Source of the DNA: Epilithonimonas caeni DSM 17710
GTDB taxonomy: Bacteria; Bacteroidota; Bacteroidia; Flavobacteriales; Weeksellaceae
NCBI RefSeq assembly: GCF_000426465.1
Contig: NZ_AUFK01000009.1
Span: forward strand, 248,001-312,000
Length of the DNA stretch: 64,000 bases
Direction: 5' to 3'
The first letter of the stretch is position 1, and each line of letters begins with the position of its first letter. A program made the translations under genes and the position numbers. The notes under the pieces were generated by a model. That model worked only from the letters and a program-made list of their open reading frames with translations. It searched no databases and had not been told where the DNA came from. Shown one piece after another: positions 15,034-62,120 of this stretch.

Positions 15034-15166
15034 TGTATTTAATGTTTTTAGGTTGACCACATTTATAATATTAAATTTCTGGAAGGAAAAAGAACAGATA
15101 GTAGAATATCAAAGTTATCTTTTAGTAAATAAAAAACAATATGTCTATGTGGTTTAAAATGCTTTT

Positions 15167-52212: not shown

Positions 52213-52347
52213 GTGATTTAGTTAAGAGTTACGAATTCTTAGCTAATATTTAAGAAATTTGAGAATAATGTAAAACTTTATTTTATTCTAAGATGGCAAA
52301 TTATGAACAAAATATTTACCTCATAGACACATAGTTCTTTCAGAAAA

Positions 52348-58896: not shown

Positions 58897-59865
58897 ATGA
58901 AACGTTTTCCTGTTTTGGTAATTTTAATAATCCTCTTTGCGGTTATTGCGTTTTTCATCAATCTCAATATTGGTTTTGCAAAACTCAATTTTTCTGATTT
59001 TATCAATTCAGAATCTGAGAATTTTCAAATTGCCGGATTTAGGATCAATCGTGCTTTGGCAATGCTTTTGGCTGGAGTTGCGATTCCGACAAGCGGATTT
59101 CTTTTGCAGGAATATTTCAAGAATCCTTTGGCTGGTCCGGACGTCTTAGGAATCACTTCGGTTTCCAGTTTGTTTGTGGCGATCTACATTTTCTTTTCAC
59201 AGGATATTCTAATTCCGGATTTTTTGCAGAATAGTTTTATCAGTTTATCATCGATCATAGGAAGCATTGCTTTGATGATGATTTTACTGTTATTTTCGAA
59301 TCGGTTTCGGGATAGAAGTTTCATCATTATTTTCGGATTTTTGATTTCGGCTTTGGCTGGTGCTGTTGTTTCCTTTCTCCAGTTTTATGTGGAAAGTCAA
59401 AGTTTAAAGAATTATATGCTCTGGACTTTCGGAGCGAATAATCAGGCGAGTTTGATTCAGATTTCAATTCTTACAGTTTTAATAATTATTGGACTGATTT
59501 TCACTTTCAAATCCATAAAACCATTAATTGGGAATGCTCTTGGAGCAGCTTATGCAAAGAGTTTCGGAATCAGTCAATCTAAGCTTAAAATCAGTATTAT
59601 TATAGCTTCTTCACTACTTTCTGCTTCGGTTACAGCGTTTTTAGGGCCGATTTTGTTTATTGGTGTTGTAGTTCCACATTTTTGCAGAATGATCTGGAAT
59701 CCTGCGCAGCTTTGGCATCAATGGATCCTGAATATGATTTTGGGTATTTTCATCATGCAGGTCTTTTCGATTATTTCAGAATTAAGTCAATTTCCGATTA
59801 ATATCATAACAACTTTCTTTGGGATTCCGGTGATTTTGTTGATGTTGATGAAAAATAAAGTTTAA
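58897..59865 (+). CDS. FecCD-type ABC permease (siderophore, heme or cobalamin class)
   Basis: A 322-residue inner-membrane permease from the ATG at 58897, with about nine hydrophobic helices. Family segments are FRINRALAMLLAGVAIPTSGFLLQEYFKNPLAGPDVLGITS and GPILFIGVVVPHFCRMIWNP, typical of BtuC/FhuB/FecD permeases. Its ATPase partner is encoded downstream at 60515, but a GxxExxY gene with flanking repeats lies between. A periplasmic binding protein is not encoded in the set. Confidence 0.92.
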   Translation: MKRFPVLVILIILFAVIAFFINLNIGFAKLNFSDFINSESENFQIAGFRINRALAMLLAGVAIPTSGFLLQEYFKNPLAGPDVLGITSVSSLFVAIYIFFSQDILIPDFLQNSFISLSSIIGSIALMMILLLFSNRFRDRSFIIIFGFLISALAGAVVSFLQFYVESQSLKNYMLWTFGANNQASLIQISILTVLIIIGLIFTFKSIKPLIGNALGAAYAKSFGISQSKLKISIIIASSLLSASVTAFLGPILFIGVVVPHFCRMIWNPAQLWHQWILNMILGIFIMQVFSIISELSQFPINIITTFFGIPVILLMLMKNKV

Positions 59866-60488
59866 CACAAAGGCACAATTGTTTTTTATTAAACATCATG
59901 CTTTAAGGCACAAGTAATTTTAGCTAAGAAAACTTTGTGCCCTAAAACATGAAGGTGTTAAGTAAATTTTTGTGTCTTTGTGTTAAAACTGCGATTTTAT
60001 TATCTTCGATAAAAAATACAAATGACAGAAAATGAATTATCAAAAATAGTTTTTGATGCTGGACTCAAGATTCACAAGAAATTGGGACCTGGATTATTTG
60101 AAACAGTTTATGAAGAATGTATGTTTTACGAACTACAAAAGCAAAATTTAAAAGTTGAAAAACAAATAGTTCTACCAATTGTTTATGAAGAATTGAAAAT
60201 AAATAATGCATTTCGGATTGACATTATCATTGAAGATAAATTAATTTTAGAAATCAAAGCTGTTGAGTTTATAAACCCTTCGCATAAAGCACAATTATTA
60301 ACTTATTTAAAAATGACAGGTTGCAAGTTGGGACTTCTAATCAATTTCAATGAAGAAACTTTTAAATCAGGAGTTACAAGAGTAATCAATGGTTATTTCT
60401 AAAATAAAAAATCAACTTTAAAAATTAACAAAGTTAATCCTCGTGCCTTAAAATACAATATTGTAATAAAATTATTTGTGCCTTTGTG
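59866..60488. mobile_element. GxxExxY insertion with terminal inverted repeats
   Basis: The segment starts with CACAAAGGCACAA (59866-59878) and ends with its exact inverse TTGTGCCTTTGTG (60476-60488). A second inner pair, TTAAGGCACAAG on the left and its near-inverse CTCGTGCCTTAA on the right (near 60439), and an internal TTTGTGTCTTTGTGTT near 59970, make it highly structured. It encloses only the GxxExxY gene. No transposase is encoded. Mobility is an inference. Confidence 0.55.
60022..60402 (+). CDS. GxxExxY protein (PD-(D/E)XK fold)
   Basis: A 126-residue protein with the family signature GLFETVY (GPGLFETVYEECM, about residues 24-36) and a nuclease-fold core FRIDIIIEDKLILEIKAVE, in which Asp and the E-x-K residues are the expected metal site. 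GxxExxY proteins are common in Bacteroidota and cyanobacteria, often as scattered copies in intergenic repeats; their function is unproven. Here the gene stands between the permease and ATPase genes of one transporter, flanked by inverted repeats. Confidence 0.93.
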   Translation: MTENELSKIVFDAGLKIHKKLGPGLFETVYEECMFYELQKQNLKVEKQIVLPIVYEELKINNAFRIDIIIEDKLILEIKAVEFINPSHKAQLLTYLKMTGCKLGLLINFNEETFKSGVTRVINGYF

Positions 60489-60514
60489 ATAAATTTATCT
60501 TTGCTAAAATAAAT

Positions 60515-61456
60515 ATGTTTTTAAAAATAAATCAAGCAACAATCGGTTACACGAATCCATTGGTTTCGGAGATTAATTCGTCTTTGGAATTAGGCGAAGT
60601 TTGTTTGTTAATGGGAAATAACGGCATCGGGAAAACTACTTTAATCAAATCAATTCTTGGCCAAAATAAACTTTTAAAAGGCAAAATTTCTATCAATGGA
60701 AAATTGATTCAAAAACTAGACTCCAACGAAATAGCTTCCCAGATTGCCATTGTTTTTTCTAAAGCGGAAATCCCGGATAATTATACGGTTACCGATTTGA
60801 TTTCGCTCGGAAAATATATTCATTATCCCTATTATTTTAAATTAAATGAAACTGATAAACAGGAAATTTTCGAAATCATTAATAAACTCAATCTATCAGA
60901 ATATCAGAACAAAAAACTAACTGAATTATCTGACGGAAATCTTCAAAAAACCTTTATTGGAAGAGCTTTAGCTCAGAATTCTCCTTTTATCATTCTGGAC
61001 GAACCAACAACACATTTGGATGAAGAAAATAAACTGATGATTCTTTCATTGCTTAGAAATCTAGCAAGATCAGAAAACAAACTCATTCTTTTATCATCTC
61101 ACGATTGGCGATTGGCAAAAGAATTTTCCGATAAGATCTGGTGGATCAAAGAAAAAAAACTCATCAGCGGAATCTCGGAAGAAGTCATTCTCAACAATCC
61201 TGAACTGATTACGCCTAAGATTTTAAACTTCAATCAGACATTTCATTCGCCAGATATTGATGCCCCGAAATTGGAAAAAGAAATGATGTTTTCTTACCTC
61301 CAAAAAAACTTCTCCCAGGATTTAAGAAAATTTAAATTGACGTTTAAAAATGATTTTTGGGAACTGAATTCGGAGAATTTTCATGATAATTGTCATGGTT
61401 TCCTAGAAATTAAACAGTCTTTGCAAACAGTGATTGAAACAAGTATTTCTAACTAA
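60515..61456 (+). CDS. ABC transporter ATPase, iron/siderophore type
   Basis: A 313-residue ATPase from the ATG at 60515 (MFLKINQATIGYTN); an open frame upstream reaches into the terminal repeat and is rejected. Walker A is GNNGIGKTT, the signature is LSDGNLQKTFIGRAL (Asp and Asn at places usually Gly and Gln), Walker B is FIILDEPTTHLD, and the H-loop is LSSHDW. About 90 residues after the canonical domain form a tail with no recognised family. It is the partner of the FecCD permease gene at 58897. Confidence 0.9.
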   Translation: MFLKINQATIGYTNPLVSEINSSLELGEVCLLMGNNGIGKTTLIKSILGQNKLLKGKISINGKLIQKLDSNEIASQIAIVFSKAEIPDNYTVTDLISLGKYIHYPYYFKLNETDKQEIFEIINKLNLSEYQNKKLTELSDGNLQKTFIGRALAQNSPFIILDEPTTHLDEENKLMILSLLRNLARSENKLILLSSHDWRLAKEFSDKIWWIKEKKLISGISEEVILNNPELITPKILNFNQTFHSPDIDAPKLEKEMMFSYLQKNFSQDLRKFKLTFKNDFWELNSENFHDNCHGFLEIKQSLQTVIETSISN

Positions 61457-62060: not shown

Positions 62061-62120
62061 CTCTCGCTGATTAAGCAAATCGAGCAGATTAATCTGCAAT
62101 ATCAGTGAAATCTGCGAGAG
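62061..62120. repeat. Structured intergenic element
   Basis: CTCTCGC (62061-62067) and GCGAGAG (62114-62120) are an inverted pair that encloses the perfect 14-base palindrome GCAGATTAATCTGC (62084-62097) and a further AATCTGC. It lies between the MarR gene and the beta-oxidation gene and resembles repeats seen between genes in this group. Confidence 0.6.

Follow-up and report, generated by a model that had tools for sequence, protein, structure and literature searches.

The closest described counterparts of the system reported here are repetitive extragenic palindromes (REPs), the hairpins formed by REP pairs (REPINs), and the REP-associated tyrosine transposases (RAYTs). RAYT and repeat are linked by inverted REPs flanking the gene, by coevolution, and by the relation between gene presence and repeat abundance (PMC2817692; PMC3116915). 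A similar arrangement was found around a gene of the GxxExxY family in Epilithonimonas caeni DSM 17710 (assembly GCF_000426465.1). The gene lies in a stretch of 64,000 nucleotides, positions 248,001 to 312,000 of contig NZ_AUFK01000009.1, referred to below as the window and numbered from its first letter. The association of GxxExxY genes with cognate dispersed palindromes is well supported: inverted arms flank these genes in many phyla, arm sequence tracks protein clade, and gene-free copies of the arms are scattered through the genome. The best explanation, and a reasonably probable one on this comparative evidence, is that the GxxExxY nuclease mobilises its cognate palindromes. The gene has the look of an enzyme that partners the repeats, not of cargo carried by them.

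The likeness to the RAYT system extends to inverted palindrome copies flanking the gene, scattered gene-free copies, co-variation of enzyme and repeat, and largely vertical inheritance at the species level; a link between presence of the enzyme and abundance of the repeat is clear for one of two repeat types and weak for the other. The enzymes differ, GxxExxY being a PD-(D/E)XK nuclease and RAYT an HUH tyrosine transposase, and GxxExxY arms are built of ~8-base units. Because the enzyme is unrelated, GxxExxY is not a RAYT. On inspection by eye, GTAG was not seen at the ends of the units printed. Bacteroidetes TnpAREP genes have repeats of their own (PMC6006769) and compete most strongly with GxxExxY as candidate movers of the units described here. 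A survey of palindromic repeats includes a second class of REPs to which no transposase is assigned (PMC3733652). The units also resemble miniature inverted-repeat transposable elements (MITEs) in being short and gene-free, with inverted ends, tens of copies, and presence or absence at matching sites. Unlike MITEs, they have arms matched to nuclease clades. No target-site duplication was seen at five sites, and the E. caeni arm pairs 200-1000 bases apart (types A, B and D) enclose no transposase gene that would share their ends, although no search aimed at one was made.

A GxxExxY gene between palindromic arms in E. caeni

The sequence-only reading of this DNA had proposed that the permease and ATPase genes of an ATP-binding cassette (ABC) transporter are split by a 623-base segment with exact 13-base inverted ends and several inner repeats, in which GxxExxY is the sole gene. 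Each of these points was borne out. The segment occupies 59866-60488, its ends are exact, and the inner repeats form a two-level hairpin of 117 bases 5' of the gene, with the inner and outer right arms present again 3' of it. Position 61456, the end coordinate given there, is the end of the ATPase gene; the element ends at 60488. The features are as follows.

58897-59865, + strand: FecCD-type ABC permease gene, left neighbour (PF01032, E 3.7e-53)
59866-59878, + strand: outer left arm CACAAAGGCACAA, which opens the 623-base segment (sequence)
about 59897-59914, + strand: inner left arm of the upstream hairpin unit (sequence and predicted fold)
about 59933-59951, + strand: inner right arm of the upstream hairpin unit (sequence and predicted fold)
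59970-59982, + strand: outer right arm TTGTGTCTTTGTG of the upstream hairpin (sequence, genome copies and predicted fold)
60001-60008, + strand: TATCTTCG, possible -7 box of a Bacteroidota-type promoter of the GxxExxY gene (putative function)
60022-60402, + strand: GxxExxY gene, 126 residues, PD-(D/E)XK nuclease family (TIGR04256, PF13366)
60440-60454, + strand: second copy of the inner right arm, 3' of the GxxExxY gene (sequence)
60476-60488, + strand: outer right arm TTGTGCCTTTGTG, which closes the 623-base segment (sequence)
60515-61456, + strand: ABC ATPase gene, right neighbour (ABC_tran profile match)

The arms at 59866-59878 and 59970-59982 make a complete unit that resembles the gene-free copies elsewhere. 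The TATCTTCG word was labelled from what we take to be the Bacteroidota -7 box consensus, and is also found upstream of the GxxExxY gene at four other loci (L008, L012, L016, L017).

With at most one mismatch, the type-A arm pattern TTGTGYCTTTGTG matched the E. caeni genome (G000) 50 times, compared with 14 for the reversed pattern, an excess over chance. The matches form 13 inverted pairs within 4 kb, all in a single orientation and none in the opposite one. In ten pairs the starts of the two arms are separated by 104-138 bases; one of these pairs adjoins the gene, the other nine are elsewhere and without a gene, and the type-A units are predicted to fold into hairpins. The 13-base ends, which the sequence-only reading had proposed to look for in the genome, thus recur nine times as gene-free hairpins. 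Other GxxExxY genes, which it had also proposed to look for with these ends, do not share them: in this genome each of the four GxxExxY genes has inverted ends of a different sequence, and most clades have ends of their own. A fifth, weak match lies inside a longer, different protein.

Another GxxExxY gene (L002) is bracketed by type-B ends, TCTCGCAGATTTTGC, which had 36 genome matches as compared to 2 for the control (1 mismatch). The type-C gene has a SufBD-family gene (probably sufB) on one side and an ABC ATPase gene (probably sufC) on the other; its arms matched 6 times against 1 in the control (3 mismatches), two of the six being its own arms. The type-D gene precedes ftsA and follows a gene that matches no Pfam family, and its arms had 22 matches against 0 (3 mismatches). 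Types A, B and D together give 25 inverted arm pairs within 4 kb, all in the same orientation. Only three of these have arms 200-1000 bases apart (610, 515 and 545), and each encloses a GxxExxY gene; three wider pairs (1.2, 2.6 and 3.3 kb) were left out of this comparison. One gene-free type-B unit is present within the window.

62062-62119, + strand: gene-free type-B unit (TCTCGC...GCGAGA; sequence), after a MarR-family gene (PF01047, E 3.9e-11)

The protein is a clear member of the GxxExxY / PDDEXK_3 family, a name that carries no function (TIGR04256, E 4e-42, 143 bits against a cut-off of 35; PF13366, E 8.7e-41, 139 bits against 22). It has the complete PD-(D/E)XK motif, comprising E27 of the GxxE motif, D67, E77-x-K79 and Q91xxxY95. 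In 65 aligned sequences G24, E27, Y30, D67, E77, K79 and Y95 are invariant, and Q91 is nearly so. It lacks the HUH motif and catalytic tyrosine of a Y1 transposase; PF13366 and TIGR04256 are the only profile matches, and the fold is that of PD-(D/E)XK. The AlphaFold2 model (mean predicted local distance difference test score, pLDDT, 96.6) had Cas4 4r5q as its best Foldseek match (E 5.7e-4). Structure comparison gave 4ic1_G, which we take to be a Cas4 protein, with Z 9.8, root-mean-square deviation (rmsd) 5.1 and 104 residues aligned, followed by restriction-enzyme-like folds and by Hjc 1gef (Z 7.4, rmsd 3.2, 88 aligned). The Hjc score is within a range that may mean only a common arrangement. 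The likeness to Cas4 and Hjc is one of fold, GxxExxY being smaller than Cas4 chains, and a shared fold shows no function. A Cas4b model matched in part (E 1.9e-4, residues 55-98 only), and a sequence search of solved structures returned nothing better than a designed repeat protein at E 0.016. A role as a defence gene was set aside, the matches of that kind, Cas4-like and other, being weak. The three other genes scanned around GxxExxY were two transporter genes and one thioredoxin-like gene.

Inverted arms across phyla and protein clades

Loci were drawn from named genomes of many phyla as the best 80 of at least 571 confirmed relatives. The 300 bases upstream and downstream of each gene were aligned as inverted repeats, with 644 other open reading frames (ORFs) from the same contigs as controls; two loci with short flanks were dropped. 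The median inverted-flank score was 34 for GxxExxY loci and 19 for controls (Mann-Whitney p 4e-31), and 59 of the 78 loci exceeded the 95th percentile of the controls, 30 the 99th. Among 30 fresh loci from the same phylum, 21 were above the 95th percentile and 9 above the 99th; these were the 30 strongest matches, scored against the thresholds of the 78-locus set with no controls of their own and with species overlap between the two sets unchecked. Of 296 genomes sampled from the phylum, 149 had GxxExxY genes, with a maximum of 11 in a single genome.

Inspection by eye shows that many arms consist of repeated ~8-base units, e.g. CGCAAAG, CACAAAG and CGCAGAG. Strict inward-facing pairs of such units on both sides, a motif chosen post hoc, were found at 31/78 loci and 2/632 controls, and again at 11 of the 30 fresh loci. 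A triple CGCARAG unit pattern was scanned in 18 GxxExxY-bearing genomes of several phyla, none without GxxExxY being included; 16 had at least one match and eight had more than 20. A Dolichospermum genome gave 118 matches (control, 0) and a Roseiflexus genome 87 (control, 1). Short palindromes with CGCAAAG/CACAAAG-type arms abound both in the genus and in no fewer than 8 of the 18 genomes.

Within the genus, 76 of 77 places were used, the fragment in G016 being left out; one locus had flanks too short to read. Most protein groups display an arm sequence of their own (CACAAAGGCACAAAG, TATCGCAAAGGCGC, CGCAAGGTTAGACAAAG, TCTCGCAGATTTTGC, ACCACAAAAGTCACAAAAG, ACCACATAGGCACATAG and others), and one common pair of ends for all GxxExxY genes was therefore rejected. 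Much of this match is explained by descent in place, because most groups occupy one site. Same-clade pairs at different sites, of which there were only three, had a mean of 68.7 as compared to 44.5 (permutation p 0.003). In the wider set, arm similarity tracks protein identity (108 of 110 loci, Mantel rho 0.44) and still does so for pairs below 60% protein identity (rho 0.27, p 0.001). Shared genome ancestry may add to this correlation.

Turnover of repeat units and persistence of genes

The permease-ATPase junction was compared in 23 genomes of the genus. Full-length GxxExxY genes occupy it in 10, six with the window type (one of them, G005, with an in-frame stop) and four with a second type that is 62-64% identical and has CGCAAAG ends. 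G016 has a fragment there, and the remaining 12 have no GxxExxY at the junction. In five genomes only 11-21 bases separate the aligned coding parts of permease and ATPase. Four others (G017, G003, G012 and G020; loci L009, L020, L025 and L028) have a different palindrome, GTCATTC..., which at a guess is perhaps a RAYT-type REP, and three (G022, G015 and G013; L011, L024 and L027) share a related ORF of 104 codons, probably membrane-bound. With the two transporter genes next to each other in some relatives and varied contents between them in others, the gap is a recurrent landing place. Empty junctions exist and the ends occur elsewhere, so neither of two outcomes feared for the sequence-only reading, a GxxExxY gene at this place in all relatives and ends found nowhere else, was obtained. 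Its idea that GxxExxY genes travel as small non-autonomous units stands in part: empty junctions and recurring ends agree with it, but free travel of the genes themselves as passengers is not supported, and it is the gene-free hairpin that disperses.

The genes themselves mostly stay put under purifying selection. The 76 genus loci fall into 17 context groups, some of which paralogous neighbours may have merged, and each clade is mainly at one site. Non-orthologous pairs reach at most 81% DNA identity, and no recent jump to a new site was seen in the 76 loci. GxxExxY as a recently mobile cargo unit was rejected for the genus on this basis. Median dN/dS (the ratio of nonsynonymous to synonymous substitution rates) was 0.05-0.10 in ten clades, with 0.44 for the highest single pair, whereas Rayt genes are described as evolving rapidly (PMC2817692). 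GxxExxY genes with in-frame stops or reduced to fragments were observed in five genomes (G002:C33, G005:C74, G008:C4, G018:C5, G016:C24), and may be taken as a sign of repeated loss. Carriage by phages or plasmids was also rejected: there was no match in 50,697 phage records, and the seven plasmid records are all predicted to be non-mobilizable.

Gain or loss of gene-free units was followed with the CATAG repeat type. G004 has 21 CATAG units, of which 17 were compared with G019 and G005, the other four being nested in another repeat. At 9 of the 17 sites the unit is absent from at least one relative: from both at L331, L338, L339, L340, L342 and L343, and from one at L334, L337 and L344. It is present in both at L333, L345 and L346, and the remaining five were undetermined or occurred in one only. 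Sites L338, L339, L340, L342 and L343 are less clean, because their flanks are only ~74-92% identical. The clearest case is L331 (1288-1402), where the unit is nested in a type-A hairpin, within its loop; both relatives have this hairpin without the interruption. Conservation among CATAG units, the four nested ones included, reaches ~17 bases past ACCACATAG. A plain MITE with target duplication gained no support, as none was seen at aligned sites. The four nested units (L336, L341, L348, L350) sit within a larger repeat whose inverted ends resemble AGAGCCTGTTTAAA, apparently a separate MITE carrying CATAG units. Lone CATAG-type arms are also present in the window, at 52318-52334 (1 mismatch) and 15137-15153 (2 mismatches). 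Despite the CATAG-type arms of the E. caeni genome, the cognate clade-18 GxxExxY was not found there.

Repeat frequency was compared with the presence of the cognate clade for two repeat types, CATAG and AAAAG; the matches counted are arms, so that a complete unit counts twice, and the p values ignore kinship of the genomes. Where clade 18 is present (7 genomes), CATAG matches numbered 25-69, as compared to 0-26 where it is absent (16 genomes; p 1.3e-4). AAAAG matches numbered 31-92 in the 6 genomes with clade 17 and 3-53 in the 17 without it (p 0.018). Densities were also sampled in 400 kb each of G015, without GxxExxY, and G019, with 8 GxxExxY genes. Type A and CATAG were rarer in G015 (5 and 0 matches per Mb, as compared to 27.5 and 15), AAAAG was alike (7.5 and 10), and CGCAAAG was commoner (15 and 5). 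Perfect inverted repeats were alike, at 5.5 per 100 kb in G015 and 6.2 in G019. Given these mixed densities, the sample shows no general difference.

Explanations for the nuclease-repeat association

In the proposed mechanism, the GxxExxY nuclease would recognise its own family of palindromes by their inverted arms, which consist of some two to four ~8-base units (such as CACAAAG, CGCAAAG, CGCAGAG or CGCAGAT), and would act in trans on the gene-free hairpins of that family, leading to excision, insertion or copying. Each clade would serve its own repeat sequence from a mostly fixed site and be inherited vertically, while the repeats come and go. Binding or cutting of the arms by the nuclease, dispersal driven by that cutting, and a single-stranded or cruciform substrate are steps that we infer.

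Several observations weigh against mobilisation by the nuclease. AAAAG frequency barely tracks its cognate clade, and in the cross-check with non-cognate clades CATAG gave p 0.03 with clade 17 and AAAAG p 0.13 with clade 18; the weak association of CATAG with the wrong clade arises because the clades share genomes. G015, without GxxExxY, still has 16 CATAG and 42 AAAAG matches, and hairpins with unit-like arms are commoner in its sample than in that of G019 (0.8 and 0.2 per 100 kb). Clear arms are missing from protein groups 19 and 20 and from some single loci (e.g. L304, L256, L259), and 19 of the 78 loci and 9 of the 30 fresh loci do not exceed the control threshold. The triple-unit pattern gave 0 matches in 2 of the 18 genomes, at most 9 in 9 of them, and a number near the control in G329 (14 and 11). 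The complete hairpin beside the window's gene is not general; a one-sided hairpin of this kind, on either side, occurs at 12/77 loci and 62/658 controls, and is not supported as the general layout. No target-site duplication was seen at five aligned sites (L331, L334, L337, L342, L344), where flanks are AT-rich and ends fuzzy, and the differences at the empty sites range from a few bases to 50. Mobilisation itself is something that we infer.

The hairpins could instead be moved by another enzyme, such as an HUH transposase of the RAYT/TnpAREP kind, with GxxExxY as cargo between two copies. That TnpAREP subclass 2.6 occurs mostly in Bacteroidetes would suit this explanation, as would the repeats that G015 retains without any GxxExxY. 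However, no other gene lies between the type A, B and D arms 200-1000 bases apart in the E. caeni genome, and the arms recur around GxxExxY across phyla and track its clades. A clade-by-clade match to its carrier is not expected of cargo, and we consider this account unlikely. Purifying selection, vertical inheritance, and Cas4-like and Hjc-like folds among the structural matches could also point to a structure-specific nuclease kept by the host to deal with long palindromes or cruciforms, with no spreading of repeats; GxxExxY genes would persist beside palindromes that regulate or protect them. Such a general nuclease needs no clade-specific arm sequence, however, and would not predict the frequency of one repeat type; it is a distinctly unlikely explanation.

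Two further accounts are very improbable. A homing-like GxxExxY would cut gene-free copies and have its own gene copied in by repair, which would suit the position of the gene between arms of its own repeat family and the presence of two clades at the same transporter junction in different species. Gene-free copies are available by the tens, yet none of the 76 genus loci is a recent copy of the gene at a new site. The hairpins might also be ordinary terminators or regulatory RNAs with an incidental position beside GxxExxY, a notion that has in its favour the predicted folding of A-type units and the many loci without strong arms. Such flanks are rare around control genes of the same contigs, however, and arm sequence tracks protein clade, so there is little to be said for coincidence. 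Mobilisation of cognate palindromes by the GxxExxY nuclease is the reading that we prefer.

As far as searches of open-licence PubMed Central reach, the association of GxxExxY with palindromes has not been described previously. No link between GxxExxY and repeats was found among these papers; the two that name GxxExxY do so once each, in passages that do not speak of repeats, and the repeat words led to one unrelated paper only. A broader proposal is made tentatively, as falling somewhat short of an even chance. GxxExxY proteins may be the dedicated mobilisers of a large, hitherto unrecognised superfamily of interspersed palindromes (CRCAAAG, CRCAGAG, CRCAGAT) that extends from Bacteroidota to Cyanobacteria, Chloroflexota and Desulfobacterota. 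This would be a second, chemically unrelated solution of the RAYT-REPIN kind, for which a PD-(D/E)XK nuclease of 126 residues and host repair would suffice to spread DNA hairpins. No role for GxxExxY could be found in the searches made, and the family is present in about half of the sampled genomes of the phylum. If true, the link between nuclease and repeat would give both a testable function and add a class of nuclease to the enzymes that can disperse DNA. The many lineage-specific pairs of nuclease and repeat would then be natural replicates for the co-variation of an enzyme and its DNA site.

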